Shown here in pieces: positions 2,133 to 41,233 of a DNA stretch of 44,524 nucleotides. The notes under the pieces were generated by a model that worked only from the letters and a program-made list of their open reading frames with translations, was not told where the DNA came from and made no database searches. The position numbers were made by a program, and so were the translations under genes. The DNA lies in contig JAUXOG010000010.1 of assembly GCA_030682385.1 (NCBI GenBank), forward strand, positions 1 through 44,524. The letters are read 5' to 3'. Source of the stretch: Bacteroidota bacterium (GTDB lineage: Bacteria; Bacteroidota; Ignavibacteria; UBA10030; BY39). Positions within the stretch are counted from its first letter, which is position 1. Every line of letters begins with the position of its first letter.

Positions 2133-2151
2133 TATCAATACCCACGAAAGC

Positions 2152-2179
2152 GTAGAGACTTGCCAAGGCAAGTCTCTAC
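2152..2179. terminator. Perfect hairpin between the two BNR-start genes
   Basis: A 13-bp perfect stem (GTAGAGACTTGCC / GGCAAGTCTCTAC) with a 2-nt loop starts 20 bases after the stop codon. There is no T tract, so it is either a weak terminator or one of the dispersed palindromes seen elsewhere in this window. Confidence 0.45.
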
Positions 2180-2217
2180 TACTAAAAATATAAAACACAT
2201 TTAAAAGAAAGAACTGT

Positions 2218-5200: not shown

Positions 5201-7794
5201 GTCTCTATGATGACATTATTGCTGTTCCCTACAGCGGGCCCGGACATGGACTCATGTATGCGAAACTAAAACCTAATACGCCCGTCGATTGGGACAGTAG
5301 TGGGACCATCGACACACTCTTCGTGATTAGCGCGGACATAAACATTTTCGCGGACACATCACGTTCACCCGGTGAACTTCTCGTTAGCCAGGACGACTGG
5401 TCTCAACTGGTTTACAGCTTCAGAAATAGTCCGGATTTTTCAGATGCGTCAAGATCCAACTTGCGCCAAGGATTAGATGAAATGAAGGAGTTAGACTTTG
5501 AGACGTTTCAATTCCTCAACAACCTTCCTCCACCAAAACCGTCCGGTGAGTTTGTCATGGATGGTGTACTTGATACGTCCGCAGTGCCCATCGCTTCAAA
5601 TGCCGGAATCAATCTCTATGCGCGCTACAAATCAGGTCAACTGTATGTGGCAACGAATAGCGCTCAGTCGCAAGGCGCGGATATGTTCATCTTCATTTCA
5701 GACGGGCGGAATTCTCTCCGCGCCGCACCCTCAGGAAAAAACGGACAGGTTTCAGCTTGGTCCGTGTTTCTGTGGAACAATAGCTCAGACAATTCTACCG
5801 GTTGGTCGAATGCAACAGAGGGCGCTCAAAATAATTTCACGGCTGATACCGTAGGCACGGTGCTCGAAGGTGTGATTGACATCGAGTACCTGTACGGGAA
5901 AAGTCCATCAGCGTTGTTCATCGCGGTCGGCAAGTACGGAACCAATGCGAGCGGCGTGTTGCTTGCACAAGTTCCAGTTGGCAATGGAGACGGAAACATA
6001 GATCCGTCGGAACTCTTCTGGTTCATCGGCGCTCCTCCTCCCTTGAATACTTATTTCACACAGCAAGGAGCTAAACTCGTTGGTACAGGCGCGGTGGGCA
6101 GCCCTGTTTTTCAAGGGTATGATGTTGCCCTCTCGTCAGATGGGAATACCGCAATCATCGGTGGATTCTATGACAATAGCAACACAGGGGCTGCCTGGGT
6201 CTATACGCGGAGCGGAGGTGTGTGGAGCCAGCAAGGAAGCAAGCTCATTGGCGCAGGAGCGGCGGGAGTTTCAGGTCAAGGGCATTCTGTCTCCCTCTCA
6301 GGCGATGGGAATACTGCAATCGTCGGAGGACCCTTCGACGGCGGCGGCGGGGCTGCCTGGGTGTTCACGCGATCTGGAGGTGTGTGGAGCCAGCAAGGAA
6401 ATAAACTTGTTGGAACAGCCCCTTTCGGCTACTTTCTAGGCTGCTCTGTCTCCCTTTCAGATGATGGGAATACTGCAATCATCGGTGAATTCCGCGCCGA
6501 TGGCGACGCAGGGGCTGTTTGGGTGTTCACGCGAACTGCGGGTGTGTGGAGTCAGCAAGGAGATAAGCTCGTTGGTACAGGCGCGGTCGGCAATGCACAA
6601 CAAGGATACTCAGCTTCCCTCTCAGGCGATGGGAATACTGCAATCATCGGTGGACGCTTTGATAATGGCGAAGCAGGAGCTGCGTGGGTGTTTACGCGAT
6701 CTGCAGGTGTTTGGACCCAGCAAGGAGATAAGCTCGTTGGTACAGGCGCGGTGGGCAGGGTTTTTCAAGGGTCTGATGTTGCCCTCTCGTCAGATGGGAA
6801 TACCGCAATCATCGGCGGACCCACCGACAATAGCAACACCGGGGCTGCGTGGGTGTTCACTCGATCTGCCGGTGTTTGGACCCAGCAAGGAAGCAAACTT
6901 GTTGGTACAGGGGCTGTCGGCATTGCACAACAAGGGAGTTCTGTTTCCCTTTCAGGTGATGGGAATACTGCGCTCGTTGGTGGGCAGGCGGACAATGGCA
7001 ATGTAGGAGCGACGTGGGTGTTCACGCGGAGTGGCGGCAACTGGATTGAGCAGGTGGGTAAGATGGTTGGCACAGGAACAGCCGGCGCTAATCAGGGTTG
7101 GTCTGTTGCTCTCTCGTCAGATGGGAACACGGCAATTGTCGGCGGACCTATTGACGCAACGGGCCTCGGGGCTGCGTGGGTGTTTATGCACGACACACCC
7201 CTTTCCGTCCAATTGGCCAGCTTCACGGCAACGATCGTGAACGTGGTCAATGTCCGGCTTGACTGGACGACGACGAGTGAATACAACAACCTTGGGTTCG
7301 AAATCCAACGATCCCCGGACAATCAGAACAACTTTAGCACAATCCCGAATAGTTTCATTCCGGGTTACGGCACAACCAGCGAACCGCACTCGTATTTTTA
7401 TATTGATACAACTGCAGGAGTTGGCATCTGGTATTTTAGACTGAAACAGATTGACGTTGACTCATCAATACATTACACAGCGCCAATTCAAGCCGTAATA
7501 TCTTCGATCGGAGAAGAAGCGGCAATTCCGGTAGAGTTCGCCTTATATCAGAACTACCCGAATCCATTCAATCCGTCAACAACGTTTCGTTATGATCTCC
7601 CCAACACGGCATATATAACTCTGAGTGTATATAACGTACTTGGTCAGAAAATTGAGACTCTGTATAACGGGGAGAGAAAAGCCGGGACATACAAAACTAC
7701 CTGGAACGCGTCACGTTTGCCAAGTGGAATCTACTTCGTCCGCATCCAGGCGGCTTCATATGTGGCGACAAAGAAAGTAGTGTTGATGAAGTAG
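2218..7794 (+). CDS. Chimeric T9SS-secreted beta-helix / metzincin protease / seven-repeat propeller protein
   Basis: This 1858-residue protein is predicted to be secreted by T9SS. In order: a signal peptide (1-21); a BNR-like stretch copied from the preceding gene (to ~121); a sharp switch to a segment that itself looks like the end of a signal peptide (FNFLQAQ); a CSLREA-like strand (TFVVTTIADTGAGSLRAAI, ~190-208); a right-handed parallel beta-helix with recurring 'GNYIGTDATG' turns (~250-650); a DSDGDG calcium-binding loop (~750); a metzincin zinc site HELGHTLGLRH at H926-H936 with a Met-turn at M952 (SIMNY); seven ~56-residue repeats (QQG.KLVGTGAVG...SLS.DGNTAIIGG...GAAWVFTRS, ~1282-1660) probably folding as one beta-propeller; an Ig/FN3-like region; and a T9SS type A domain. 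The HExxHxxGxxH motif supports an active zinc protease. Its substrate is unknown. An AT-rich stretch precedes the ATG and no strong Shine-Dalgarno site is visible. Confidence 0.85.
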   Translation: MKCIKFFPFIIVIILFQSSNAQWTSLSVAGGDHVRPLCVEGNTLFMGSTTGRLWRSTDQGNAWLTTPGYLSTTSGTYTLASDGTTMYASRVTEKITKSTDNGVTWNQVNNGIPAGYNPALFSSFNFLQAQEVQRVYESQRLHEGMEGLGNNLGNATPRSKPLDQQPPLPSTGWTRPATPLKIAATFVVTTIADTGAGSLRAAITLSNGTPGLDLISFNIAGGGVQTITPITSLPQLNDPVIIDGTTQPGFSGTPIIELNGGSAPLGTNGLNLVGGNSIVRGLVINRFKRFTGGGNGYAIVLDVNGSNFIQGNYIGLNAAGTAILPNGNSVGIFGTSGGNTIGGTTPETRNVVSGNLGAGVAIATGSIGGNIVKGNYIGTDATGTTALGNGGNGIFSNAPNNIIGGLVSGAGNIVADNALPGIFIGASANGTVVQGNYVGTDVTGSFNLGNRSNGINVRSSDNIIGDISPTGRNIIAGSSSAGIYFFGPTATRNRVINNLIGTDVSGTVAFANNKGMVFDNAHNNTVGGETAEEGNLIAGNLGHGVDILNAGATGNKLLNNFIGTNWNAQSDLGNSSHGIKVASSQDTIKFNTIAYNSEVGVFIAGGIQNMIRENSIYSNGGMAIDLAPAGLTINDSLDNDTGPNNLQNFPILVSARVQQDSAIVYIKLESKPSAQFQIDFYANEDYDVSHFGEGARWLHREFVFTDNQGYVATTLLLIVGSENYITATATDAEGNTSEFSQALCLLDSDGDGIMDSWEMSGWGIDVNSDGIIDQDLNAMGASPYYKDIFVEVDAMTGMAPHDSSLQKVADAFAAAGNGGIYLHVTKSDIDIFPIPWLINWWEGFHDVKSAYFGTQAERTSPNARFILEAKKLVYRYCIFASQHTTDSWSGRAEDNFRQGCDDFMVTLGGWTPSGGSEDQKAGTFMHELGHTLGLRHGGGDGKQYKPNYISIMNYTWQMPFSRGLPWRLDYSREALPTLNETNLDEFAGLNVPVGSLYDDIIAVPYSGPGHGLMYAKLKPNTPVDWDSSGTIDTLFVISADINIFADTSRSPGELLVSQDDWSQLVYSFRNSPDFSDASRSNLRQGLDEMKELDFETFQFLNNLPPPKPSGEFVMDGVLDTSAVPIASNAGINLYARYKSGQLYVATNSAQSQGADMFIFISDGRNSLRAAPSGKNGQVSAWSVFLWNNSSDNSTGWSNATEGAQNNFTADTVGTVLEGVIDIEYLYGKSPSALFIAVGKYGTNASGVLLAQVPVGNGDGNIDPSELFWFIGAPPPLNTYFTQQGAKLVGTGAVGSPVFQGYDVALSSDGNTAIIGGFYDNSNTGAAWVYTRSGGVWSQQGSKLIGAGAAGVSGQGHSVSLSGDGNTAIVGGPFDGGGGAAWVFTRSGGVWSQQGNKLVGTAPFGYFLGCSVSLSDDGNTAIIGEFRADGDAGAVWVFTRTAGVWSQQGDKLVGTGAVGNAQQGYSASLSGDGNTAIIGGRFDNGEAGAAWVFTRSAGVWTQQGDKLVGTGAVGRVFQGSDVALSSDGNTAIIGGPTDNSNTGAAWVFTRSAGVWTQQGSKLVGTGAVGIAQQGSSVSLSGDGNTALVGGQADNGNVGATWVFTRSGGNWIEQVGKMVGTGTAGANQGWSVALSSDGNTAIVGGPIDATGLGAAWVFMHDTPLSVQLASFTATIVNVVNVRLDWTTTSEYNNLGFEIQRSPDNQNNFSTIPNSFIPGYGTTSEPHSYFYIDTTAGVGIWYFRLKQIDVDSSIHYTAPIQAVISSIGEEAAIPVEFALYQNYPNPFNPSTTFRYDLPNTAYITLSVYNVLGQKIETLYNGERKAGTYKTTWNASRLPSGIYFVRIQAASYVATKKVVLMK
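2243..2580 (+). repeat. Direct repeat copy B (start of the chimeric gene)
   Basis: This is the partner of 1-328. The similarity stops abruptly around 2575-2580, inside the coding frame, where the protein changes from BNR-like to the beta-helix/protease protein. This marks the fusion point. Confidence 0.85.
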
Positions 7795-7803
7795 AGAAGC
7801 AAA

Positions 7804-8268
7804 ATGAAAATTTTTAATGGTGTTTGCATATCAATCATCTGGATAACCCTGATGGGCTGTTATTCTTCAAAACCAGCGACCCCCAAAACAATGAAATACA
7901 ACATTATAATTGGAACGGGAGGCGGTTTCACAGGCATATATAACGGTTACTATATTGATACTATTGGTAATATTAGTAGTTGGGAAGGCAGAATATTTAC
8001 GAATACAAATTTAAAATATATTACCACCCTGAGTCGTGAGCAACTCGACAAAATATCTGGGTTGGTATTGGATAATGATGTACCGGGTACCAATTATAAA
8101 AATTCTGGTAATATATACTCGTTTATTCAATTGAGCTACAATAACTTTAAACACTCAGTTTCCTGGTCGGGGTTCGAACCAGACGAAAGTGTGCCCACTA
8201 ATATTAAAGAGTTCCATTCGCAGTTGAGAAAAATTATTAACGATACTATAAACAAACAATTAAATTAA
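7804..8268 (+). CDS. Small hypothetical lipoprotein
   Basis: A protein of 154 residues with a hydrophobic leader and a lipobox-like ITLMGC; the modified cysteine would be C19, so the mature protein is probably membrane-anchored. The rest is a mixed Gly/Asn/Tyr-rich domain with no motif I recognise. It starts nine bases after the stop of the chimeric protease gene and ends 11 bases before the M4 protease gene, so it is probably co-transcribed with one or both. The codon choice is more AT-rich than in the long upstream gene. Function unknown. Confidence 0.7.
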   Translation: MKIFNGVCISIIWITLMGCYSSKPATPKTMKYNIIIGTGGGFTGIYNGYYIDTIGNISSWEGRIFTNTNLKYITTLSREQLDKISGLVLDNDVPGTNYKNSGNIYSFIQLSYNNFKHSVSWSGFEPDESVPTNIKEFHSQLRKIINDTINKQLN

Positions 8269-8279
8269 ATGAGGATGTT

Positions 8280-10745
8280 ATGAAATCTTATTACAAATTA
8301 TTTCTGATTTTGGTGATTCCATTTCTCGGTTTTATTAATTCAAATCCAGGGATTAAGTCGTCAAACCTTAGCGTTAAGTTTTATTATCATAATACGGAGA
8401 ACGGTTTAAGAGCATTAGAATCAAAGGTCGGTCATAAAGTTCAAATCAAGTGGAGCGAAAATAACTCTACGCCGACATTTGTTTCGGGAAAACTAACACA
8501 AGCCGGTTTTTCATACAGTTCTGATAAGGCGGATGACGGAATAAGGTTCCTTTCAGAAAACAAGGACTTATTTGGGTTGAGAGAACCTGCAAAGGAATTG
8601 AAGGTCATTTCGAACATCACAGATGAAATTGGAATGACACATATAAAATATCAGCAACAGGTAAATGGAGTAAAAATATTTCATGGACAATTAATTGCCC
8701 ACTTCAATTCTGATGGGGCGGTTGAGAGTGTTAACGGCAGGTATTATCCGACACCGGATATAAATACTATACCTTCCATAAATATTCACACTGCCATACA
8801 AATAGCGAAAGATAAATTAGGTTCTTATCAATCTACCGGTGAACAGGGAGAGTTGAACATATACTCTCAAGGACCGAAATTACTTCTGGTTTATGCAGTC
8901 GCACTCCCTTCGTACTCAAATCCAATGATGACGGTTTTTGTTGATGCGTTAAATGGCGAAGTAATTAAAATAGATGATGGTATTCGTTATGATGGTCCGG
9001 CTGTCGGCTCAGGTGTCGCTCTGGATGGAACCGTGAAAACAGTTCATTCTTATCTGTCCGGTGGTACATATTATATGATCGACGCATCATTACCGATGTA
9101 TGTTCCCCCGATTGATAGCTTTAAAGGAGTGATTGCAACTATCGACGCCCAAAATGACACCAGCGGGAATGGTTATGGTAGTGCGGTATATGTATCAGAC
9201 CCGGATAACAACAACAATTTCAATGATAATGAAAGATTAAAAGCGGCAGTAAGTGCTCATTTTTTTTCGCGTGAAGTTTATCAATTTTTTAAAACACGTT
9301 ATAACCGTAACAGCTATAATAACACTGGTGGTTCTCTGAGAAATGTTGTCCATTATTTTGTCAACCTCAACAATGCTTTTTGGAATGGTGTATCTATGTC
9401 ATACGGCGACGGAGATGGAGTTACTTTCTCAAATCTTGCAGGTGCGTTGGATGTAATTGCACATGAGCTTACACACGGTGTTACACAGTACACAGCTGAC
9501 CTTGTTTACGAATTACAGCCGGGTGCCCTTCACGAAAGTTTCTCCGATGTGTTTGGCGCAATCTGTGATAGCGCTGATTGGTTGATCGGTGAAGATGTGT
9601 TTACACCTGGAATAAATGGTGATGCTCTTAGGAGTATGCAAGATCCACACATGGGGCTATCATCGAACGATCCGAGATGGCAACCAGCTCACATGGATGA
9701 ATATGTGGTGTTACCCAATGATCCCAATAACGATAACGGAGGTGTGCACATTAACAGTGGCATTCCGAACAAAGCTTTTTATAACGTTGCGACTGCAATC
9801 GGGCGATCTAAGGCAGGTTTGATTTGGTACAGAGCATTAACAGTTTATCTTACCAAAAATTCACAGTTCATAGATTGTAGAAATGCTTGTCTGAATTCAG
9901 CTAAAGATTTATTTGGACAAAGCTCGATAGAGTATGATGCGGTCGCCAGTGGTTTTAGTGCAGTCGGTGTCGGAAGTGGTGGAGATCAGACACATAGTTT
10001 AACGTATGACGATGATGTTTCATCTATAGGGGTATATGAACAAGCTGCTAATTGGGAATTAGCAGTTAAGTTTACGCCGCCTGTTTCAAATGTAACCATA
10101 ACAAATGTTAAAGTCGAAATAACCGGCGATAACGCCGGTGGTACCGGACATTTTACTTTGAAGATGTATCGAGCAGATGGCGCCAACGGTTTGCCAGGAA
10201 CACAAATTATTACTCCTTATTCATATACACCCGCACAAGTTGGATGGCAATCTTTTGATATTACCGGCGCAAATGTTAATGGTGATTTTTATGTAAGTGT
10301 ACTTTACGACGGAACTAATCAACCGCTCATAGGTGGAGATCTACCACCGGGAAATCAGAGAGCTTATGAGTATAATTCTTCTAGTTGGTCTAAATTAAAT
10401 TCACCCGATGATTATACACTATTCATGCGTGCATCAGTAACAAGCACAACAGGAGTTGTTGAAATTGATTCAAGAGTACCTCCGAAGTTCGAACTTGCAC
10501 AAAATTATCCCAATCCGTTTAATCCAAGCACGATGATCAGATACCAATTACCAGTCGAAAGCAAAGTAACAATTACAGTTTATAACATGCTTGGTCAGGT
10601 TGTGAAAGTCCTTGCCGACGAAATACAATCAGCAGGGTATAAATCGGTTGAGTGGGATGCGAGTGGTATTGCAAGCGGTCTGTACTTTTATCGACTTCAG
10701 ACGCTCAATTTTACAGAAACTAAAAAACTTTTACTATTGAAATAA
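8280..10745 (+). CDS. Thermolysin-like (M4) metallopeptidase with T9SS sorting domain
   Basis: A secreted zinc endopeptidase of 821 residues. A signal peptide is followed by an FTP/PepSY-type propeptide (~45-220; e.g. the IKYQQQVNGVKIFHGQL segment), which in this family acts as an inhibitor and folding aid and is cleaved off. The catalytic domain has H395-E396-L-T-H399, the third zinc ligand E419 in HESFSDVFG, and the His of GVHINSG at H490. The His-to-Glu spacing of 24 equals that of thermolysin (H142 to E166). After the peptidase comes a beta-sandwich region (~575-715) and a T9SS type A domain (NYPNPFNP, C-terminal ~80 residues). It probably degrades extracellular protein. All key catalytic residues are present and the gene appears intact. 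Confidence 0.93.
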   Translation: MKSYYKLFLILVIPFLGFINSNPGIKSSNLSVKFYYHNTENGLRALESKVGHKVQIKWSENNSTPTFVSGKLTQAGFSYSSDKADDGIRFLSENKDLFGLREPAKELKVISNITDEIGMTHIKYQQQVNGVKIFHGQLIAHFNSDGAVESVNGRYYPTPDINTIPSINIHTAIQIAKDKLGSYQSTGEQGELNIYSQGPKLLLVYAVALPSYSNPMMTVFVDALNGEVIKIDDGIRYDGPAVGSGVALDGTVKTVHSYLSGGTYYMIDASLPMYVPPIDSFKGVIATIDAQNDTSGNGYGSAVYVSDPDNNNNFNDNERLKAAVSAHFFSREVYQFFKTRYNRNSYNNTGGSLRNVVHYFVNLNNAFWNGVSMSYGDGDGVTFSNLAGALDVIAHELTHGVTQYTADLVYELQPGALHESFSDVFGAICDSADWLIGEDVFTPGINGDALRSMQDPHMGLSSNDPRWQPAHMDEYVVLPNDPNNDNGGVHINSGIPNKAFYNVATAIGRSKAGLIWYRALTVYLTKNSQFIDCRNACLNSAKDLFGQSSIEYDAVASGFSAVGVGSGGDQTHSLTYDDDVSSIGVYEQAANWELAVKFTPPVSNVTITNVKVEITGDNAGGTGHFTLKMYRADGANGLPGTQIITPYSYTPAQVGWQSFDITGANVNGDFYVSVLYDGTNQPLIGGDLPPGNQRAYEYNSSSWSKLNSPDDYTLFMRASVTSTTGVVEIDSRVPPKFELAQNYPNPFNPSTMIRYQLPVESKVTITVYNMLGQVVKVLADEIQSAGYKSVEWDASGIASGLYFYRLQTLNFTETKKLLLLK

Positions 10746-10762
10746 ATTGAAAGATATATCAA

Positions 10763-11194
10763 ATGACACAACCCTCAAGCTCTTCCACATTGTTCTTGTT
10801 GATTTTCAGTTTTGCGCTCGCATTATCATCGTTCACGTTGCAGGCACAAGATGTACCGGACTATCAACACGCTCCTGTTGTACCAACTTTGTCACAATTT
10901 CAACTTGAAAAGGTAAGGGTTCCAATAAGAGCCGAACAGGCGATACCCCGAATTAGTGCATCTCCTCAAGCCGTAGGCGCCACATTCAATGTAACAACAA
11001 CAAATGATACGGGAACCGGATCGTTTCGAAAGGCAATAAATGATGCAAATGCAAGTTCTGGGAGGGACATCATCGAATTTAATATTCCCGGGTCCGGCTA
11101 TAAAACAATTTCTCCGACATCACCGTTACCATATATTGTTGATCCTGTTGTCATCGATGCAACGACACAGTCGGGAGTAAGGATATCGACGTAA
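10763..11194 (+). pseudogene. N-terminal fragment of a broken beta-helix/metzincin paralogue
   Basis: A signal peptide (cleavage after LQAQ) is followed by the same CSLREA-like start of a beta-helix as in the 1858-residue protein (TFNVTTTNDTGTGSFRKAI and later VVIDATTQSG). The frame then meets a stop at 11192. The next bases, read in another frame, encode the part of the paralogue just before its calcium loop (FITATATDPQGNTSEFSRALC). About 1.38 kb of beta-helix is therefore missing relative to the paralogue, and the junction (about 11175-11190) is out of frame. The 143-residue product would be a secreted stub with no evident function. Confidence 0.7.
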
Positions 11195-11286
11195 TTTTAC
11201 CCGTCCAGGTCTCAGATGATGAGTTTATCACGGCAACAGCCACAGATCCGCAAGGGAATACCTCAGAGTTTTCGCGGGCATTATGT

Positions 11287-13695
11287 TTGAAGGATAGTGA
11301 TGGCGACAGCATATTGGATTGCTGGGAATCTGAGGGTGATGGGATTGATGTTAATGCTGACGGCATCATTGACTATAATCTCTGGGCAAAGGGGGCGCGT
11401 CCGAATCATAAAGATATGTTCGTTGAGGTGGATTGGATGGAGGGATTTCGACCGAATGACACTTCGATAGCGATGGTTGTAGATGCATTCAAGGAAGTTT
11501 CAAACGGTTACGTCAATAACCCCGACGGCAAGCCGGGCATTAATCTCGTAGTTGAAGTGTCAACAGATACCCTGGCTACGTCTATTTGGGACTTAGATCC
11601 ATGGCCCGAGTTTTTTGATAATAAGCTATTATACTTTGGCACCATTGGGGAACGGGAAGCCGCGAACCAAAAAAATATTTTGGATGCAAAACGCCTCGTG
11701 TATCGCTACTGTATTTTTGCCCACAGCTTTAATCCAGAGGGTTGGTCCGGGATCGCTGAATACAATAATGGTGCCGGTGGAAATGACTTAATTGTCTCGC
11801 TTGGAAAATTTGGAATCGTCGGTGGTGATAAGTTTCAGCAGGCAGGTACATTCATGCACGAGATGGGCCATACAATTGGACTTGACCATGGTGGTATAGA
11901 CGACATCAACTACAAGCCAAACTATTACAGCGTCATGAATTATACGTGGCAGTTTCCCAAGAAGGATAGCTCGTTGAGTGGCTTGACATGGAAGCTTGAT
12001 TATTCCCCGGCAGCGCTACCCACGTTGGTGGAGAATTCTTTGAACGAAGCAGCGGGGTTGAGTCCACAACTGGTGGATTTTCCATCTCCTATTTTTATTC
12101 CCTTTTCGGATACTAGCGGAGCTGTACGGACTGGAGTCCTTTATCCGAACGCTGCTATAGACTGGGATGGAGATGGGGATTCGTCAGGGCTCGCTACCAT
12201 ACCTGTCGATATCAATAATCTCAGTAATCCTCGCAGTCCCTCTCCCGGTGAGACGCTGGAAGGGTTTGCTGACTGGCAGAATTTAAAGTACAATTTTAGG
12301 AACAGTCCTACTTTTCTCGATCCCTCTCCTGCAGAATTGCTTAAGCGGGTAAATGCAATGAAAGACTTTCCTCAGGAAATGACACCTGCAATTTATAATT
12401 ATCTCCAGTCATTGCCCCCTTACGGGATCGTACCTCCAGTTATTATTCCGTCATCATTAATCTGGTTAGGCACTCTCGGCGGATATAAAAGTGAAGCTTG
12501 GGGCATTTCCGATGATGGTCTGGTTGTCACTGGATATGCAATGGATCCATTTGGTAATCCCTATGCATTTAGATGGACAGCCGCCAATGGTATGATCAAT
12601 CTTGGCACTCTTGGAGGAACTTCGAGTACGGCAGCAGGTATATCTTCCGATGGAAATACTATTGTTGGAATCGCCGATGACAGTACCAATATTTATAGAG
12701 CTTTTAAATGGACTGAAGCTGCCGGAATGCAGGATTTGGGTGCAGGTGATTACAGTAGAGCGACCAGCGTATCTTCCAATGGTACGGCCATCACGGTCAA
12801 TGTTTATCCCAATGCATATCGGTGGACATTATCCGGCGGGTTGCAAAACCTCGGCAGTCTGGGTGGGAATAGTACTGCCGCCAATGCCGTATCATCAAAT
12901 GGATCGGTTATAGTTGGCTCCTCATACAATGCATCTAATGATCCTTATGCTTTTCGTTGGGTTGAAAATGGTGGAATGACAAATATTGGTATATATTACA
13001 GCTTTGCTCGTGGTGTTTCAGGTGATGGTAACACAGTAACCGGATTTGAAACAGGTTCGGCAGGTTTTTATAGAGCATTTCGTTGGACAGCCCCTAATGG
13101 TTTTGAGATGAATATTGTTGGTAATTTTAGTTCAGGATGGGATGTTTCGTATGATGGAAAGTATCTAGTGGGAGATGGATCAGGTGGAGCATTTAGATTA
13201 TCACAATCGAATGGACTTGAATTTTTTAATCAAACCTACTCAGGTTTACTAACTTCAGGTTCCGAATTTTACACCGCAGCAGCTATATCTTCAAACGGTC
13301 GTTTTGTCGTCGGTTACGGTCATAATTCTTCTACAAACAGAGACGAGGCTTATTTATTGGATACAGGCGGCATACCGATGTCTATCGAAGATAATGAAAT
13401 GAAGATTAACACTTTTGCTTTAGAACAAAACTATCCCAACCCATTTAACCCGAGTACAGCAATTCAGTTCGGATTGCCTTACACATCGCACGTCACACTA
13501 AAGATCTTTAATATCCTTGGACAGGAAGTTGCGACACTGCTAAACGAGAAGCGCGATGCAGGGCAACATTCAGTACAATGGGTTGCACGCGGTCTTGCCA
13601 GTGGTGTGTACTTCTATCGTTTGTACGCCCATCCGACAGATACTAAACTAACAAACGATTTTGTGCAAACGAAAAAACTTATGCTAATGAAATAG
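11287..13695 (+). CDS. C-terminal part of the broken paralogue: metzincin protease, HAF repeats, T9SS domain
   Basis: The open frame actually runs from 11143; 11287 is a TTG with no good ribosome site, so true initiation here is doubtful. The encoded 802 residues hold a DSDGDS calcium-loop motif, a metzincin zinc site HEMGHTIGLDH (H191-H201) with a Met-turn (SVMNY), then HAF-type extracellular repeats (LGTLGG...A.GISSDG...VG...AFRWT, ~395-660), and a T9SS type A domain ending in KKLMLMK. The protease part is a clear paralogue of residues ~745-1110 of the 2218-7794 protein, but that protein's seven-repeat propeller is replaced by HAF repeats. Without its signal peptide the product could not enter T9SS. 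It is either a pseudogene half or depends on recoding; a sequence or assembly error at 11175-11190 is also possible. Confidence 0.65.
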   Translation: MKDSDGDSILDCWESEGDGIDVNADGIIDYNLWAKGARPNHKDMFVEVDWMEGFRPNDTSIAMVVDAFKEVSNGYVNNPDGKPGINLVVEVSTDTLATSIWDLDPWPEFFDNKLLYFGTIGEREAANQKNILDAKRLVYRYCIFAHSFNPEGWSGIAEYNNGAGGNDLIVSLGKFGIVGGDKFQQAGTFMHEMGHTIGLDHGGIDDINYKPNYYSVMNYTWQFPKKDSSLSGLTWKLDYSPAALPTLVENSLNEAAGLSPQLVDFPSPIFIPFSDTSGAVRTGVLYPNAAIDWDGDGDSSGLATIPVDINNLSNPRSPSPGETLEGFADWQNLKYNFRNSPTFLDPSPAELLKRVNAMKDFPQEMTPAIYNYLQSLPPYGIVPPVIIPSSLIWLGTLGGYKSEAWGISDDGLVVTGYAMDPFGNPYAFRWTAANGMINLGTLGGTSSTAAGISSDGNTIVGIADDSTNIYRAFKWTEAAGMQDLGAGDYSRATSVSSNGTAITVNVYPNAYRWTLSGGLQNLGSLGGNSTAANAVSSNGSVIVGSSYNASNDPYAFRWVENGGMTNIGIYYSFARGVSGDGNTVTGFETGSAGFYRAFRWTAPNGFEMNIVGNFSSGWDVSYDGKYLVGDGSGGAFRLSQSNGLEFFNQTYSGLLTSGSEFYTAAAISSNGRFVVGYGHNSSTNRDEAYLLDTGGIPMSIEDNEMKINTFALEQNYPNPFNPSTAIQFGLPYTSHVTLKIFNILGQEVATLLNEKRDAGQHSVQWVARGLASGVYFYRLYAHPTDTKLTNDFVQTKKLMLMK

Positions 13696-34974: not shown

Positions 34975-35018
34975 TGCTGAATCAGAAAAATCAGAAGATA
35001 AAATTATCTTACTCAAAG

Positions 35019-35264
35019 ATGGGCATAACAGTTTATATTTTATACTCCAACCAATTTAATAAAACCTATGTTGGTCAAACGAACAACCTTATCAAACGTT
35101 TAAAGTATCATAACTCGGGTCAAGTAAAATCCACAAAACGATATATTCCATGGGAGATGTTGTACTTCGAAGAATATTCGAGCAGAAGTGAAGCGATGAG
35201 GCGAGAAAAATGGTTTAAAAGTAAGACAGGCAGGAAAAAGATTTCGGAAATATTACAAAACTAA
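35019..35264 (+). CDS. GIY-YIG nuclease superfamily protein
   Basis: Starting at the ATG at 35019 the protein has 81 residues and is a stand-alone GIY-YIG domain of the small UvrC N-terminal/YhbQ-like type: VYILYS (GIY strand), TYVGQTNNLIKRLKYHNSG (YIG strand and conserved Arg), then WEMLYFEEYSSRSEAMRREK (with the catalytic-site Glu region) and WFKSKTGRKKI. An upstream in-frame ATG at 34953 would add residues encoded by the AACCGTT palindrome and is less likely. These proteins are widespread in Bacteroidota genomes, often next to repeats or tRNAs; their physiological role is mostly undefined. Confidence 0.85.
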   Translation: MGITVYILYSNQFNKTYVGQTNNLIKRLKYHNSGQVKSTKRYIPWEMLYFEEYSSRSEAMRREKWFKSKTGRKKISEILQN

Positions 35265-35338: not shown

Positions 35339-35427
35339 GGAGAGGTGGCCGAGTGGCTGAAGGCAACGGTTTGCTAAACCGTCATAGTGGGAAACTGCTA
35401 TCGAGAGTTCGAATCTCTCCCTCTCCG
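35339..35427 (+). tRNA. tRNA-Ser (GCU), attachment site of the integrative element
   Basis: An 89-nt class II tRNA with a perfect acceptor stem GGAGAGG/CCTCTCC, anticodon stem-loop ACGGTTTGCTAAACCGT with anticodon GCT, a long variable arm (ATAGTGGGAAACTGCTAT) and T arm GAGAGTTCGAATCTCTC. CCA is not encoded. From base 14 onward the sequence is duplicated at 41154-41233, so the 3' part of this gene now comes from the integrated element. Confidence 0.96.
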
Positions 35428-35431
35428 CTGA
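35352..35431 (+). repeat. attL: 80-bp att repeat in tRNA-Ser
   Basis: An 80-base stretch identical to 41154-41233. It starts in the D arm of the tRNA, covers the anticodon arm, variable arm, T arm and acceptor 3' side, and ends four bases past the discriminator base. Confidence 0.95.
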
Positions 35432-35434
35432 TAC

Positions 35435-35464
35435 AAAAAGGGCTATTTTAAAAATTACCCTTTT
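35435..35464 (+). terminator. Element-supplied terminator behind tRNA-Ser
   Basis: AAAAGGG and CCCTTTT arms, 15-nt AT-rich loop, ending in a T run, directly after attL. It substitutes for the tRNA's original terminator, which was moved to 41234-41261 by the integration. Confidence 0.65.
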
Positions 35465-35501
35465 CAATGCAGCATATTTTCGGTGAATTTTTTACCACAT
35501 T

Positions 35502-35546
35502 GGTAACCACAAAGGTAACCACTTAGGTAACCACATTGGTAACCAT
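35502..35546 (+). repeat. Four 12-bp-spaced GGTAACCA repeats near attL
   Basis: GGTAACCA occurs at 35502, 35514, 35526 and 35538, with a degenerate fifth unit (TTTACCACAT) just before. The period is exactly 12 bases in one orientation. Two more copies with the same spacing lie next to attR (41092, 41104). Best explained as arm-type binding sites of the element's integrase or excision factor; replication iterons are the alternative. Confidence 0.75.
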
Positions 35547-35595
35547 CTTTTTGACTTGCTTCTTGCCTTAGAAACGTTGCTGAAGGAGTGAAAAT

Positions 35596-36597
35596 ATGTT
35601 TTTATCAAGGCGTTTGAACGGAGTGTATTATCTATGGTTTGTAGATGAAGGCGGTCGCAAGCGGAAGGTATCAACGGGCTGTAAGATGAAAGCCGATGCT
35701 TTCAAGTTTCTAAAGTCTTACAATCAGGCTGAGGCTGAGCGGAGAGCTAAACTCAAAACTATTTCCTTGAATGAATTTATGCAAGAGTTTCTTAATTACT
35801 CAAGCGGTGTTCATACATTAAAAACTCAAGCTTGTTTTAAAAATGCTTTCCGGGAGTTTATAAGAATAATCAGCGATAAGCAATTAAATCAAATATCCAT
35901 TAAAGATATTGAGAGTTTTTTAAGTCAAAAGAAGTTAGAAGCGAGTGAGTGGACGGCAAGGAAATATTTCATCTCTTTGAGTTCAGCATTCGAGCGAGCG
36001 AGGTTATGGAATTATCTCGAAGTCAATCCGTTCCGTAAGGTCGAGAAGCCGAAAACTCCTGAGCTTATACCGTTATTTTTAACAAAGCAAGATTTTAATT
36101 TATTACTCACTGCAATTGTAGAGAATGATTTTCGGGAGTTGGTTATCATTGCAGCTTATACAGGTTTGCGGTTGGGTGAATTGCTTTCATTGGAATGGAG
36201 CGATATTGATTTTAAGAAGCGGGTGCTTCAGGTTCGGAATAAGGAAACATTTACAACGAAGTCGGGAAGGAATAGACTTTTACCGATGGCTGAGGTTGTG
36301 TATCATACCTTGATGCAACGTAAAGAGAGTTTGACTTCAGAGCATTCCCTTATATTTAACAGCAAGCCTCAATACGTTACTAAAAAATTCAAGCGATATG
36401 TTCGGGCTTCGGGACTCAATGAGCGTTTACACTTTCACAGCTTGCGACATACCTTTTGCAGTTGGTTGGCTGAGGCGGGTGTTAGCTTGTATGCTATTAG
36501 CAAACTTGCCGGACATTCACAAACTAAGACAACGGAGATATATGCACATTTGCAAAGCGACTCAATGCACGGGCTTGTCAATGATGCTTTCAATTAA
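35596..36597 (+). CDS. int: Tyrosine recombinase (integrase) of the tRNA-Ser element
   Basis: 333 residues. An N-terminal DNA-binding region includes a short arm-binding-like domain (FLSRRLNGVYYLWFVDEGGR) and a SAM-like core-binding domain (~55-150). The catalytic domain has R192 (TGLRLGELL), H281 and R284 (HSLRH), H307 (LAGHS) and Y316 (EIYAHL). All catalytic residues are present, so integration and excision should be possible. AAGGAG lies eight bases upstream of the ATG. Its place just inside attL is standard for tRNA-targeting elements, and the GGTAACCA repeats lie directly in front of it. Confidence 0.95.
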   Translation: MFLSRRLNGVYYLWFVDEGGRKRKVSTGCKMKADAFKFLKSYNQAEAERRAKLKTISLNEFMQEFLNYSSGVHTLKTQACFKNAFREFIRIISDKQLNQISIKDIESFLSQKKLEASEWTARKYFISLSSAFERARLWNYLEVNPFRKVEKPKTPELIPLFLTKQDFNLLLTAIVENDFRELVIIAAYTGLRLGELLSLEWSDIDFKKRVLQVRNKETFTTKSGRNRLLPMAEVVYHTLMQRKESLTSEHSLIFNSKPQYVTKKFKRYVRASGLNERLHFHSLRHTFCSWLAEAGVSLYAISKLAGHSQTKTTEIYAHLQSDSMHGLVNDAFN

Positions 36598-36854
36598 GAT
36601 AATCAATCCTGAGCGATATATGGGTGAAATAGGATACTTTAAATTGGTTGACAAGGTTATATAAACACATATTTTGCAAATTTAATTTTTCTTCTTGCAT
36701 TAGTTTGAAAATAGTTTAAATTGTAGTAAGACATAATTTCAGTATGATGCGAATTAAGAAAATATTATCCTTCACTCGTTCCCTTGTAAAAGGGGGAAGC
36801 CGGTCGCACGGTATTGAAACGGGTGGAGGGATTTTTATTTTATGAGGTGAACGG

Positions 36855-37292
36855 ATGAGACTAAGAAAAGAAATCGTTGAGGTTCTGAACATAGCAAGAG
36901 AACACGGTCCAATGATTCAAGAATACAGAGAACAGTTTGAAGCTATGAGGCGGGCTGGTATGTTTGAACACATTGAAGCTATAAGGCGGGCTGGCATATT
37001 TGAAGATGAAGAAACAAAAGAAGTCAAGGAAATTCCTTCAGTAGCAGAGCCAATAAATAAGAAACAAAGGGATTACAAACTCAAAAGTTGTAAAATTATT
37101 TGTGATAATTTAGGACTAAAAGCGGGTGAAACAGTTTCACGAGAGACTAAGTTTGAAATAGCAAAAAAATTAGATTTAGATGTGGGAGAATTTAATAATT
37201 TCAAATCAGGAAAATCAAATTCTTATCAAGAAACTTCAAAAATGGTTGCTGAATTAGGATATAAAAAGCGAGGTGCTACAAAATATAATTGA
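36855..37292 (+). CDS. Putative regulator of the element
   Basis: 145 residues, not assigned to a family. The N-terminal half is helical and charged with an internal tandem duplication (EAMRRAGMFEHI / EAIRRAGIFEDE; ~36 bases duplicated at 36940-37010). The C-terminal half (~72-145) looks like a small helix-turn-helix-type domain (FEIAKKLDLDVGEFNNFKSG). A dimerising coiled coil plus a DNA-binding domain fits a transcriptional regulator, which satellites usually have at this place; this is inference. A GAGGTG site precedes the ATG. The ~255-base gap between int and this gene has no gene; it is AT-rich and may hold the promoter. Confidence 0.6.
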   Translation: MRLRKEIVEVLNIAREHGPMIQEYREQFEAMRRAGMFEHIEAIRRAGIFEDEETKEVKEIPSVAEPINKKQRDYKLKSCKIICDNLGLKAGETVSRETKFEIAKKLDLDVGEFNNFKSGKSNSYQETSKMVAELGYKKRGATKYN

Positions 37293-37314
37293 TGTTTTTA
37301 GCTTGTTTTTCGAT

Positions 37315-37369
37315 GTTACCGATGTTTCTATATAAAAATTAAAAATAATTTTACGGAAACATTGGTAAT
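37315..37369. promoter_or_regulatory. Long inverted repeat around an AT-rich core (possible origin or operator)
   Basis: GTTACCGATGTTTC (37315-37328) is matched by GAAACATTGGTAAT (37355-37368), 12 or 13 of 14 positions pairing, with a ~26-base almost pure A/T core between. It lies upstream of the replication genes and downstream of the putative regulator. A replication origin or a regulator-binding site would both fit. Confidence 0.45.
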
Positions 37370-37444
37370 ACTTTTTTGACATATTAGATTGTATCAGTTT
37401 GAAAGAACGGATATAATTCAAATATTAACCTGAAAAGAATTTTA

Positions 37445-37488
37445 AAAGCCGAAGGTGAACTTATCCGTTCATACCTTTGGCTTTTTTT
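37445..37488 (+). terminator. Hairpin terminator just before the 138-residue gene
   Basis: AAAGCCGAAGGT and ACCTTTGGCTTT arms (one G-U pair), 16-nt loop, followed by T7. Only ~16 bases separate it from the next ATG, which makes it either a terminator of the regulator transcript or an attenuator in the leader of the replication genes. Confidence 0.75.
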
Positions 37489-37504
37489 ATTTATAGGAAT
37501 AGTT

Positions 37505-37921
37505 ATGAAAGATATTTCTCTGACGCCTACAAATAAGCCGGGCGTTTTTCAAGTTATGCTTTCGGACGGCTGGACAGTTAAACAAATTGGAACTTGGAAC
37601 GAAGCAAATTGCACGTTTATTACACAGCGAAACGAAAAAAAACATTTACATTTAAAGTCGGGAAGTCTTGCCGTCAATGAGATGGTGCTGGAGCTACCGG
37701 GCTTGCGATGGGTTTGTATAATGTATGAGGATGCAAGCGGTGGTAAAAGGGAATTAAAAACAAGCCGGGAATATATTCTAAAATTCGGCAAGCGGGCTGC
37801 CTTTGCATCTACATCATACGAGCCTCAGCTGTTTCTTGAATTGAGTCAGTGGTCGATGGAGCGGGCAGTCCGTTTTGAGAAGCAGCTAAACAGTCAACAA
37901 TCATTGTTTGAGGTTGCTTAA
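37505..37921 (+). CDS. Hypothetical protein of the element
   Basis: 138 residues, no family recognised. The N-terminal ~100 residues appear beta-rich (FQVMLSDGWTVKQIGTWNEA, ELPGLRWVCIMYEDASGGKR), the last ~35 helical (LFLELSQWSMERAVRFEKQL). AGGAA precedes the ATG. Its stop overlaps the ATG of the next gene by one base (TAATG), so it is translationally coupled to the winged-helix replication protein and is likely to act in replication or its control. Confidence 0.6.
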   Translation: MKDISLTPTNKPGVFQVMLSDGWTVKQIGTWNEANCTFITQRNEKKHLHLKSGSLAVNEMVLELPGLRWVCIMYEDASGGKRELKTSREYILKFGKRAAFASTSYEPQLFLELSQWSMERAVRFEKQLNSQQSLFEVA

Positions 37922-38358
37922 TGGAAGGCTGGATAAAACTTCATCGGTCTATTGAAGAAAACGAAATGTATTTTGCTGATAGATTTACACGAATGCAAGC
38001 TTGGATTGACTTGCTTTTATTGGCAAATCATAAAGCAGCGGTCGTATTTATACGAGGTATCGAGTTACGATTGAAGCCGGGTGAGTCGTTCCATTCGTGG
38101 TCAACGTTAGGCAAACGCTGGAAGTGGAATCGCAAGACAGTTGGAAGGTTTTTGAAATATCTTCGAAACAAGCAAATGATACACTACAGAACAGCCTACA
38201 AAATTGGCGTTATTACTATTGTAAAATGGGAAAACTATCAATCCAATGGTGCAGTAGTGGACTACAAAAGGGACTACAAAAGGGACTCTAACAAGAATGT
38301 TAAGAAGAATAAGCCTGAAAAAAAATCAAATCGAATGAGTGGTTTGCGATGGCTTTGA
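37921..38358 (+). CDS. Phage-type winged-helix replication initiator-like protein
   Basis: 145 residues. The start GWIKLHRSIEENEMYFADRF, the helix WIDLLLLANHK, the strand LKPGESFHSWSTLGKRW and the KTVGRFLKYLRNKQMI / VITIVKWENYQ wing match the N-terminal domain of many phage replication-organiser proteins. These load the helicase or open the origin. The C-terminal tail is short, basic and contains an exact DNA tandem duplication (DYKRDYKRD), so the origin-binding or helicase-interaction extension of longer relatives is missing. About 100 bases without a gene follow before the helicase gene. Confidence 0.75.
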   Translation: MEGWIKLHRSIEENEMYFADRFTRMQAWIDLLLLANHKAAVVFIRGIELRLKPGESFHSWSTLGKRWKWNRKTVGRFLKYLRNKQMIHYRTAYKIGVITIVKWENYQSNGAVVDYKRDYKRDSNKNVKKNKPEKKSNRMSGLRWL

Positions 38359-38459
38359 TACGTAGATTGAATTATCGGGCGGTTTATTTTATATGGTGCG
38401 GGCTTCCGCTGAAATACAAAATTATAATGCTTCTAAAGAAGTTATGGAAAGGATTTTAG

Positions 38460-40199
38460 ATGAAATATTTTGAATATGCAATCGGTGGGCTGGTCAATAG
38501 GAATCAGATTATTGAAGCTGATAAGTTCAGTTTGAACGGTCAACGGTCGGAATGTTATAAGTCGATGTTTTACTTTGATGATGGTTTGAAGATTTACGTT
38601 GATAAGACAAAGTCGGTGTCGGGATACAGCGGGCAGCATTGCAGCGATTATCTTTATTTCGATTTTGATGGTTCGGATTTGCACGAGGTTAAGGCTGAGG
38701 TCGAGAAGTTTATCAGATTCCTTGAGGTCGAGTATATGCCGATTGAATATGTTTCAATTTTCTTTTCTGGAAACAAGGGCTTTCATTTATCTATACCATT
38801 CAAGGCAATATCAGAGCCGGAATTTTCGATTGAGTTTTATAAAACAGTTAAGAAAATGGTGTTGAAGTTGACTGCGGGCTTTAAATTTGTTGATGCTGGA
38901 ATATACCAAATTAACCGGCTGATGAGATTAGAAAATACTATCAATGCAAAATCAGGGTTGTATAAAATACCGATAACCTTTGAGGAGTTAGTTTCCTTAT
39001 CGGTTGCCGAGATACAGGAAGTTGCGAAAACTCCGAGAGAGTTTGAGCAATACGAAGATGAAATAAAGGAAATTTCGGGGCTTCGGGAGTTATACCTTGA
39101 ATGCAAGCGGGTTGAGACTGAGCCGAAGCAATCAAATGTAAATGAGTTCACAAATATTTTGCAAGGTGTAGCCGAAGGCAATCGAAACAATGCAGCGGTG
39201 AAGCTTGCGGGTTTGTTCGTAGCAAAAGGATTCGATGAAACTCTCACTCTTGTAATGCTAAAACTTTGGAATCAAAATAACAATCCAAAATTAAGTGAGA
39301 ATGAAATTCAGGGAATTGTTAGAAGTTGCTTTCGATATAAGAAGGTAGATGCAATACCTGTTGTGTATAGCATCGGGTCCGGGTTCAATGAATACAAACA
39401 GTTCGTTTCAACCTTTGATGCGGTCAAGGTTAAACTTGGCTTTGAGCCGATAGATGAGAAGATAAGGGGACTCGTTCCCGGCGAGGTAGCCGTTATACTC
39501 GGACGGACTTCTGTCGGCAAGAGTGCCTTCCTTCAGTGGATTGGTTTAAACTATGCTAAACGCACAAAGCAGCCGGTCTTATTTTTCTCTCTTGAGATGC
39601 CTATCAGTTCGGTTATAGAGAGAAGCATTCAAATATCAACCGGTGAGTGCGGGTATGATGTGGAGCGGTTCATCAAGTCGGGAAATGTAAATTTTGAGCA
39701 AGAGGTCAAAGCTGAATTACAAAAGATTCAATCATTTTACAGTGTAACGAAATCGGGTCTTAACCTGGAGCAGATTAAAAACATAATACAGCACAGTGAA
39801 GAAAATATTTTCAAACAAAAATGCGGTTTAATTCTCATCGATTATCTCGGACTCATTGCCGGCGGCGGTCGGGATTTATATGAGAAGACTTCAAATATCG
39901 CAAGGGAGATTAAAACTATTGCAAAAGATATAAACACTCCGATAATATACCTGAGTCAAATCAACCGGAAGTATCAAGGCACGGACGAGCTGGACATATC
40001 GGCAGCGAGGGACTCAGGAGCAGTAGAAGAAGCAGCGGACTTTGTATTTGGTTTGAGAAGGGTTGATGCTGAAGATACAGAGGATTCAATCAAGCTGGAG
40101 TTAGGGGTCTTGAAAAATCGTAGAGGTTCAACCGGCAAGATTGAGATTTATATGAATAAAAAAAGTTTAAACTTTACAACGGATGGTAAACCATTTTAA
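38460..40199 (+). CDS. Primase-polymerase / DnaB-type helicase fusion
   Basis: 579 residues with two enzyme modules. Residues ~1-180 are an archaeo-eukaryotic-type primase (AEP/PrimPol): DxD at D68/D70 (YFDFDG), the SGNKGFH motif ending at H109, the third acidic motif at D145 (FVDAG), and NRLMRLENTIN. A PriCT-like helical linker (GVAEGNRNNAAVKLAGLF) follows. Residues ~320-579 are a RecA-fold DnaB-type helicase: Walker A GRTSVGKS (348-355), FFSLEMP, Walker B LILIDYLGL and the IIYLSQINR sensor. A self-sufficient replication protein able to prime and unwind is common in satellites, small plasmids and phages. It is probably directed to the origin by the winged-helix protein. AAAGGA lies six bases before the ATG. 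Confidence 0.9.
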   Translation: MKYFEYAIGGLVNRNQIIEADKFSLNGQRSECYKSMFYFDDGLKIYVDKTKSVSGYSGQHCSDYLYFDFDGSDLHEVKAEVEKFIRFLEVEYMPIEYVSIFFSGNKGFHLSIPFKAISEPEFSIEFYKTVKKMVLKLTAGFKFVDAGIYQINRLMRLENTINAKSGLYKIPITFEELVSLSVAEIQEVAKTPREFEQYEDEIKEISGLRELYLECKRVETEPKQSNVNEFTNILQGVAEGNRNNAAVKLAGLFVAKGFDETLTLVMLKLWNQNNNPKLSENEIQGIVRSCFRYKKVDAIPVVYSIGSGFNEYKQFVSTFDAVKVKLGFEPIDEKIRGLVPGEVAVILGRTSVGKSAFLQWIGLNYAKRTKQPVLFFSLEMPISSVIERSIQISTGECGYDVERFIKSGNVNFEQEVKAELQKIQSFYSVTKSGLNLEQIKNIIQHSEENIFKQKCGLILIDYLGLIAGGGRDLYEKTSNIAREIKTIAKDINTPIIYLSQINRKYQGTDELDISAARDSGAVEEAADFVFGLRRVDAEDTEDSIKLELGVLKNRRGSTGKIEIYMNKKSLNFTTDGKPF

Positions 40200-40210
40200 A
40201 AGGTGATGGA

Positions 40211-40417
40211 ATGAAAAACAAAAGAAAAGAATTAAAAGAATTCTTGAAGTTATACAATCGGTTTATATATTCAATCGTGAATCAAAACGATAACAAGGAG
40301 CTTCAGGAGTTTCCTGATGAGATTATAACCGATGAGGAGCTTGATTTTTTGCTAAACATAAGTCGAGGGATAGAAAAACCGATAAACAAAAAATGTTTGG
40401 GTCCTCCCACAAGGTAA
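40211..40417 (+). CDS. Small hypothetical protein of the element
   Basis: 68 residues, helical and acidic in the middle (ELQEFPDEIITDEELDFLLN), no family recognised. It starts 12 bases after the helicase gene with AGGTG at good spacing, so it is probably translated. Between it and the next gene are ~65 bases without visible signals. Confidence 0.55.
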   Translation: MKNKRKELKEFLKLYNRFIYSIVNQNDNKELQEFPDEIITDEELDFLLNISRGIEKPINKKCLGPPTR

Positions 40418-40482
40418 TGTTTGCGGGTGCGAAACGCTCGGAATACTTTTAGGTGAAACAAAAAAAATGTAGGTTTATATTT

Positions 40483-40947
40483 ATGAAAGAAAAACTAATA
40501 ATCAGCACAACGGAGCTTTGCAAGTTGTGGCAACGAACACCGGCTACAATATCGGAATACGTCAAGAACGGAATGCCAAAGCTTGCTCGAGGTCGTTTTC
40601 ATTTAAACGAGATATGGCAGTGGAGATATTCTGTTTTGAAAGAGAAATCCGAAACCGGCAGTGGAGATATAAAGCAAGAGAGACTTCGAAAGATTGAGGT
40701 AGAGCGGAAACTATTGGAAATTGAACTTGCGAAGCAACAAGGCAAGCTTGTTAGCCTTGATGAGATTAAGGTAGTATGGGAGAGAGTTATAGTAGCTTTC
40801 AAAAACAAATTATTATTATTCCCGAACAAAGTTTCATCACGATTATTGAATATGCAAACTATCGGAGAAATAAAATCGTTATTAGATGAAGAAATATTCC
40901 AAATACTAAATGAACTCAGTCAATCGAGGGTTGAAAAGGATTCTTGA
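40483..40947 (+). CDS. Small terminase subunit-like protein (Nu1 type)
   Basis: From the ATG at 40483, 154 residues; a GTG at 40453 would add ten residues of less typical sequence. The N-terminal domain is a winged helix of the MerR/excisionase fold (STTELCKLWQRTPATISEYV, then KNGMPKLARGRFHLNEIWQW). The next segment IKQERLRKIEVERKLLEIEL and the following AKQQGKLVSLDEI match the layout of lambda gpNu1 relatives: an Arg/Glu-rich helix, then 'G.lv..dev...w'. The C-terminus is helical (VIVAFKNKLLLFPNKVSSRL). Nu1-type proteins bind cos/pac sites and direct DNA to the large terminase. Because there is no large subunit in the element, this would redirect a helper phage's packaging. An excisionase is the main alternative, but it would be unusually long. 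Confidence 0.7.
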   Translation: MKEKLIISTTELCKLWQRTPATISEYVKNGMPKLARGRFHLNEIWQWRYSVLKEKSETGSGDIKQERLRKIEVERKLLEIELAKQQGKLVSLDEIKVVWERVIVAFKNKLLLFPNKVSSRLLNMQTIGEIKSLLDEEIFQILNELSQSRVEKDS

Positions 40948-41091
40948 AAATTTGCATTTTGAAAATTGCTGTGGTAAATTACCGATGCAGTTTAAAAAGT
41001 TAAATCTCTCAGATAAAAATATTAATGCTTTTCGGTGCTGCGGGTTTGTGAGAGAGCCTAACTTGCCGGAGAGCATTTTTTTATGGCAATT

Positions 41092-41112
41092 GGTAACCAA
41101 AAAGGTAACCAC
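41092..41112 (+). repeat. Two GGTAACCA repeats near attR
   Basis: GGTAACCA occurs at 41092 and GGTAACCA again at 41104, in the same orientation and with the same 12-base period as the four copies beside attL. In the excised circle the two groups would flank the joined attP. Confidence 0.7.
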
Positions 41113-41153
41113 CTAAAAAATAATTGCTGAAAATGAATTGAAAAAAGGCAATT

Positions 41154-41233
41154 AGTGGCTGAAGGCAACGGTTTGCTAAACCGTCATAGTGGGAAACTGC
41201 TATCGAGAGTTCGAATCTCTCCCTCTCCGCTGA
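41154..41233 (+). repeat. attR: 80-bp att repeat
   Basis: Identical to 35352-35431. It is the displaced 3' part of the original tRNA-Ser gene and lacks the first 13 bases of the tRNA, so it is not a working tRNA. Confidence 0.95.

Follow-up and report, generated by a model that had tools for sequence, protein, structure and literature searches.

A compact tRNA-Ser element of an Ignavibacteria genome with its own Nu1-type small terminase and cos-like site, a probable minimal satellite of cos phages

Introduction

P4-like satellites carry their own primase-helicase, and virion-encapsidated integrative mobilizable elements (VEIMEs) and Tycheposons are small, integrase-bearing elements of environmental bacteria that are found in virions. 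Here, we describe an element that measures 5,802 bp when a single att copy is included and is inserted within a tRNA-Ser(GCT) gene of a Bacteroidota bacterium of the class Ignavibacteria (assembly GCA_030682385.1). It lies in contig JAUXOG010000010.1, of which positions 1 to 44,524 are called the window below. We consider it probable that this element is a minimal, intact satellite of cos phages, which would use its own small terminase subunit (TerS) and cos region and borrow the large terminase subunit (TerL) and the virion.

The first-pass annotation had filed the element with the phage-inducible chromosomal islands (PICIs), which include the Staphylococcus aureus pathogenicity islands (SaPIs) and the Gram-negative PICIs. 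These are likewise flanked by att sites and carry an integrase at the left, a replication module and terS near the right end, with no virion genes (PMC6092414, PMC5052747). PICIs either pair terS with a pac site or combine cos with the TerS of the helper, with or without Rpp (PMC5052747, PMC6092414, PMC10690885); in contrast to both described modes, the element appears to unite its own Nu1-type TerS with its own cos. The replication module expected of a PICI is present and terS is the sole encapsidation gene. PICIs also have a regulator next to int (Stl/Rpr, or AlpA/MerR in the Gram-negative ones) and capsid-size genes, whereas family searches of the element's open reading frames (ORFs) recognised no AlpA, Stl/Rpr or MerR-type regulator, beside the integrase gene or elsewhere, and no TerL, capsid, other structural, lysis, capsid-size, relaxase or conjugation gene. 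The lack of structural, lysis and large terminase genes in 5.8 kb had been noted before; the PICI filing is not supported, given that no regulator was recognised, that capsid-size genes are absent and that the packaging logic differs. The size is indeed below the PICI average of 9.5 kb, as had been pointed out, but it is not unprecedented, since phage-inducible chromosomal minimalist islands (PICMIs) average 6.7 kb (PMC10803314).

PICMIs also resemble the element in combining an integrase with a primase-replicase, in lacking capsid-remodelling genes and in being packaged as concatemers; they differ in occupying a fis site in Vibrionaceae, in needing AlpA and in having neither terS nor an identified cos or pac site (PMC10803314). 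The element, instead, sits in tRNA-Ser, has terS and a cos-like site, and does not show the co-location of int, alpA and prim at fis; as no AlpA was found and the site is not fis, it does not fall in this group either. Capsid-forming PICIs (cf-PICIs) encode a small terminase subunit of their own, together with TerL, portal, capsid, protease and HNH genes, none of which is found in the element (PMC10690885). P4-like satellites share the presence of a cos site, whereas P4 uses the terminase of its helper, encodes Sid and has no terS (PMC10690885). VEIMEs and Tycheposons, both named in PMC10803314, resemble it by description in being small and integrase bearing. Overall, the element has the incomplete virion gene set of satellites in general, with a TerS and a cos-like site that are predicted to favour packaging; it works like a PICI or a PICMI, yet misses defining features of each and fits no described group exactly. 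The open-access literature searched, which excludes most subscription journals, held no paper on satellites in this lineage. The earlier remark that none had been described is thus uncontradicted, which is no proof of absence.

Results

The last gene of the element (positions 40483 to 40947, forward strand, with an alternative GTG start at 40453) encodes a Nu1-type small terminase subunit of 154 aa, as the first-pass annotation had proposed. The product matches phrog_57 (terminase small subunit) over residues 3 to 151 with an E value of 5.7e-27, against 0.009 for excisionases, and a five-sequence profile of this TerS and its relatives matches Nu1-type DNA-binding domains in the PDB (6hn7, E 3.3e-5; 1j9i, E 3.7e-5). 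On these PHROG and PDB results, an excisionase or a plasmid protein was rejected. In the AlphaFold model (mean pLDDT 77), a winged helix leads into long helices, and Foldseek aligned it with MerR, BldC and Nu1-type domains, none with an E value below 0.3. The nearest TerS relatives in the class directly precede a GpA-type TerL, both in prophages (L039, with portal and capsid; L067, with capsid) and in two 12-kb elements (L065 and L066). No close relative of the element's TerS was found in IMG/VR. Downstream of terS there is no trace of TerL; a 68-aa ORF at 40910 to 41116 was considered as a TerL remnant and rejected, its alignment scores being equal to the shuffled level.

A cos-like site (40399 to 40454, forward strand) lies 55 bp upstream of terS and had not been described in the first-pass annotation. 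It consists of GGGTCCTCCC-N14-GCGGGTGC, then TTTTAG at a conserved spacing, and was first found as a sequence upstream of terS that is common to the element and to the terS-TerL elements L065 and L066. In IMG/VR contigs that encode a related TerL, 9 of 60 regions upstream of terS contain GGGTCCT (1.5 expected). A gene-blind scan of IMG/VR with the three-block pattern GGGTCCTYCC-N12..24-GSGGGT-N2..12-GCGAGC returned 54 contigs, and in 49 of them a GpA TerL lies downstream on the same strand; of the five others, two have less than 160 bp and one less than 900 bp of downstream sequence. In addition, the site spans the ends of the linear records of the GpA phages Serratia phage BZS1, where cosL is annotated at 1-12, Vibrio phage X29, Paenibacillus phage Lily and Roseburia phage Shimadzu, and it stands at the record start of Vibrio phage XM1. 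Because of this placement before GpA TerL and across phage record ends, the motif is very probably the cos region of these GpA-terminase phages. In the element, GGGTCCTCCC-N14-GCGGGTGC and TTTTAG align with the phage site with the spacing kept. The two-block pattern GGGTCCTYCC-N12..24-GSGGGT occurs once in the window (0 of 100 shuffles) and once in the element's own 3.38-Mb genome, before terS. A Nu1-type TerS with a DNA-binding domain and a cos-like site upstream of its gene, as expected of Nu1/GpA cos packaging, are both present. A DNA hairpin at the site was also considered and dropped, its stability being no greater than that of shuffles.

The element is flanked by direct repeats of 80 nt with 100% identity, attL (35352 to 35431) and attR (41154 to 41233), whose sequence is that of tRNA-Ser(GCT); these had been reported earlier and stand. 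The left copy is part of a complete tRNA gene detected by ARAGORN (35339 to 35428, forward strand), the integration site, which is intact; the right copy is a truncated tRNA copy without the first 13 nt of the 5' end. In a genome of the same genus, G250, a single tRNA-Ser(GCT) gene precedes gltX. Its left flank matches that of the element, and its right flank, GAGGGTGATTCAATTGAATCACCC followed by gltX, matches the element's right flank, with no insert between. This locus is the empty site, and since it has both flanks without an insert, the element is a clean insertion. Upstream of the empty site, G250 carries a duplicated tRNA leader with the first bases of the gene (L069:1100-1310; GGAGAGGTGACCGAG), which suggests the scar of an earlier insertion at the same site. 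Immediately left of the tRNA-Ser site in the window lies a small ORF (35018 to 35264) that, judged by eye, resembles a GIY-YIG nuclease gene.

The recombination module is completed by a tyrosine integrase of 333 aa (35596 to 36597, forward strand; PF00589, E 7.7e-32; phrog_1, E 5.8e-65), whose intactness had been claimed and is borne out. All six copies of GGTAACCA in the window (0.92 expected) sit at the two ends of the element with a 12-bp period, four in the left array (35502 to 35545) and two in the right array (41092 to 41111), a feature missed at first pass. GGTWACC, which is related to GGTAACCA, occurs in three copies each in the sister elements L328 and L329, solely at their ends, and TTGGCAC, another repeat with a 12-bp period, brackets the sister element L297. 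By their placement, these end repeats look like candidate arm-type sites of the integrases.

The proposed replication module, a winged-helix protein and a PrimPol-helicase, was likewise recovered. The first gene (37921 to 38358, forward strand) encodes the winged-helix part of a DnaD-like helicase loader or replisome organiser (phrog_2514, E 1.4e-24), about 44-53% identical to proteins of L328 (48%), L329 (53%) and L057. To the right of the integrase-DnaD-helicase element in L057, a candidate phage-defence gene was observed (L057:6621-7304; PADLOC PDC-M21B, E 5e-60). The second gene (38460 to 40199, forward strand) encodes a PrimPol - PriCT-1 - DnaB-type helicase fusion of 579 aa, with matches to PriCT-1 (E 2.4e-13) and DnaB_C (E 2e-42) and a weak one to DNA_primase_S. 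Full-length relatives are rare, being present in 5 of the 391 genomes of the class, its own included, and those of the four other genomes are 37-47% identical. In IMG/VR, the relatives of the full-length primase-helicase are 26-28% identical, and those of 27-28% identity lie in larger viral contigs. An origin from a plasmid was discarded, as a tblastn search of PLSDB with the primase-helicase gave just partial helicase matches of low identity.

Three further ORFs on the forward strand have no assigned family. The first, of 145 aa (36855 to 37292), follows the integrase as an open frame and is a possible regulator; searches of Pfam, NCBIfam, PHROGs and PADLOC gave nothing significant for it. 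The second, of 138 aa (37505 to 37921), has homologues in L328 and L329, in both immediately ahead of the replication genes, and another in L332 (E 4.5e-10), with aligned identities of 22-30%, no Pfam or PHROG match and a poor structure model (pLDDT 34.8). The third, of 68 aa (40211 to 40417), has no significant match. Such small ORFs leave room for an anti-phage decoy, in which TerS and cos would divert the terminase of a cos phage and thereby protect the host, transfer being secondary; known satellites do act against their helpers with proteins aimed at TerS (Ppi, PMC5052747; Rpp, PMC10690885). Nevertheless, the unassigned ORFs have no PADLOC match, and an intact integrase implies mobility, as do the att sites, the arm repeats and the replication module, which makes a decoy highly improbable.

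To the best of our searches, six sister elements of the class (L297, L328, L329, L037, L053 and L056) contain no recognised capsid, TerL or conjugation gene. The closest in length, L297, comes from a genome of another family of the same order (G272) and was found through the motif scan. It measures 5,800 bp, lies in tRNA-Thr between 41-bp repeats, and has an integrase 52% identical to that of the element, a second integrase fused to a winged helix, an HNH gene and no terS. Its cos-like site scored highest in the class scan (31.3 bits) and stands 360 bp before attR; as the motif occurs here in the absence of terS, it is more likely to serve packaging in cis than to control terS. In L297, a replication-initiator-like winged helix is joined to a complete tyrosine integrase (L297:6469-7632), 50% identical to the element's, and fusions of similar look were seen in L331, L334, L340 and L341. 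L328 (tRNA-Arg, 7.6 kb) and L329 (tRNA-Ser(CGA), 7.25 kb), also of the same order, have integrases 55% and 53% identical, respectively. Both share the DnaD-like loader and the 138-aa ORF type, and a DnaB helicase replaces the PrimPol-helicase. They end in a small helix-turn-helix (HTH) gene whose matches to TerS families are weak (best E 6.6e-5) and mixed with other HTH families, and tblastn with this last ORF gave no phage match. The more distant L037, L053 and L056 (8.4-9.1 kb, all in tRNA-Arg genes) have the integrase and helicase in common with the element, the PrimPol domain being found in L037 and L053 as well, and show no recognised terS or cos. Two smaller tRNA elements, L337:1828-6755 (4.9 kb) and L336:1173-3655 (2.5 kb), have integrases 48-50% identical and no recognised replication or packaging gene.

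Sisters that bear PrimPol without terS or a cos-like match are what one would expect if the element were an unpackaged, self-replicating integrative element, moved by transformation or mobilised in trans, with terS as a passenger, regulator or excisionase. The resemblance of the TerS N-terminal domain to MerR and excisionase folds, and the weak matches to excisionase PHROGs, point the same way. The TerS match, however, is full length and includes the C-terminal half; the cos-like site stands directly upstream of terS and recurs in the sister that lacks TerS; and no relaxase or conjugation gene was detected. We therefore regard an unpackaged element as quite unlikely. The first-pass annotation had named two outcomes that would speak against a satellite, a last gene that proved to be an excisionase or plasmid protein, or relatives that always carried conjugation or capsid genes; the gene encodes TerS and the relatives carry neither.

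The two 12-kb elements (L065:4647-17241 and L066:2652-15040; 12.3-12.5 kb) lie in tRNA-Val and tRNA-Thr, respectively, between att repeats, with integrases about 34% identical to the element's. They also carry a second recombinase, a replisome organiser, a neck protein, TerS, a GpA TerL and a tape-measure gene, with no recognised capsid or portal, and may represent another type of satellite, one that brings a terminase and tail parts of its own. The IMG/VR contig L235 encodes a TerL 76% identical to theirs. That TerL and tail genes follow terS in these larger tRNA elements bears on whether the element could be a decayed prophage, that is, a Nu1/GpA cos phage in tRNA-Ser from which one deletion removed everything after terS. 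The phage-like gene order of integrase, replication genes, cos and terS would fit such a history, as would the relatives of the PrimPol-helicase in larger viral contigs. On the other hand, every ORF of the element is open, both att sites are intact, as are the arm arrays at the two ends, and nothing of TerL is left behind terS. Moreover, compact elements without capsid genes and with related integrase and replication genes recur across genomes and tRNAs, one of them, L297, near-equal in length and with a cos-like site. A decayed prophage is thus unlikely.

Elsewhere in the window, four large proteins (108 to 13695) carry a C-terminal YPNPFN sorting-like motif, which is characteristic of type IX secretion within the Bacteroidota-Chlorobi group. 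They are consistent with the lineage guessed in the first-pass annotation.

Discussion

Since the element has an integrase, replication genes, a small terminase gene and the matching packaging signal but no virion genes, transfer of its DNA in the particles of another phage is its most likely route of spread. Upon infection by a helper, the integrase would excise the element as a circle, which the DnaD-like protein and the PrimPol-helicase would replicate into concatemers. The element's TerS would bind its own cos region and recruit the GpA-type TerL of the helper. DNA cut at cos would then enter the capsids of the helper. As no gene for shrinking the capsid was recognised, each head would probably take up several units, which is the likeliest form by analogy with PICMI concatemers. 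The particles would carry the element to a new host, where it would reintegrate in tRNA-Ser. Excision, reintegration and autonomous replication are predicted from the gene families, while packaging through the GpA terminase of a helper would follow from family function and position. Since cos and TerS travel together, packaging specificity would stay with the satellite, and TerL and the virion alone would be borrowed. Consistent with a TerL supplied by the helper, no GpA-type TerL was found in the element or in its own genome. Nu1/GpA-terminase prophages are present in the same order (L039 and L060), and therefore suitable helpers exist. The earlier proposal of a satellite that redirects its helper's terminase is thus well supported by the identity of TerS, the cos-like site beside it and the relatives without capsid or conjugation genes.

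Several results weigh against a packaged satellite. Neither a helper nor induction was observed, nor a circle or an encapsidated copy, and no close relative of the element was found in IMG/VR. The host genome holds no TerL of PF03237 (Terminase_6) or PF05876 (GpA), other TerL families being untested; a resident helper prophage was set aside on this result, and any helper would be non-resident or use a TerL family other than these two. The combination of terS and cos was found in one element only, and the PrimPol-bearing relatives lack both. As for the site, the 391 genomes of the class contain the two-block pattern no more often than its reversed control (about 13 matches), so that we rely on its placement next to terS and on what the phages show; from the control counts, an accidental match in the 200 bp before the sole terS is estimated at about one in a million. 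With the first model, the cos-like profile gave the site 11.2 bits, whereas 36 scored shuffles reached no more than 8.0. A wider model, to which cultured-phage ends including AGGTACT-like variants were added, gave 7.5 bits, exceeded by 2 of 100 shuffles. The score by itself is marginal, and its modest value is explained by the divergence of the third block (GCGAGC) in the element.

Across the class, we lean towards a picture in which the tiny tRNA satellites share a common integrase/DnaD-like backbone and carry exchangeable packaging modules at the right end. Such modules would be a Nu1-type TerS with cos in the element, cos alone with the TerS of the helper in L297, and none that is recognisable in the other sisters; the form with terS and cos would carry the entire specificity part of a cos packaging machine and take just the motor and the virion from the helper.

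If the satellite reading is right, the range of phage satellites, whose known hosts are mainly Firmicutes, Gammaproteobacteria and marine plankton, would extend to this environmental group. It would also show how small the minimal kit is, with an integrase and a replicase joined by a single small terminase and about 55 bp of packaging site. The specificity part and the motor of a cos machine would reside on two genomes, and whether a satellite TerS alone decides which DNA is packed would become testable. Furthermore, the cos-like consensus of the GpA phages could detect further satellites that lack TerS, as it did with the L297 element.

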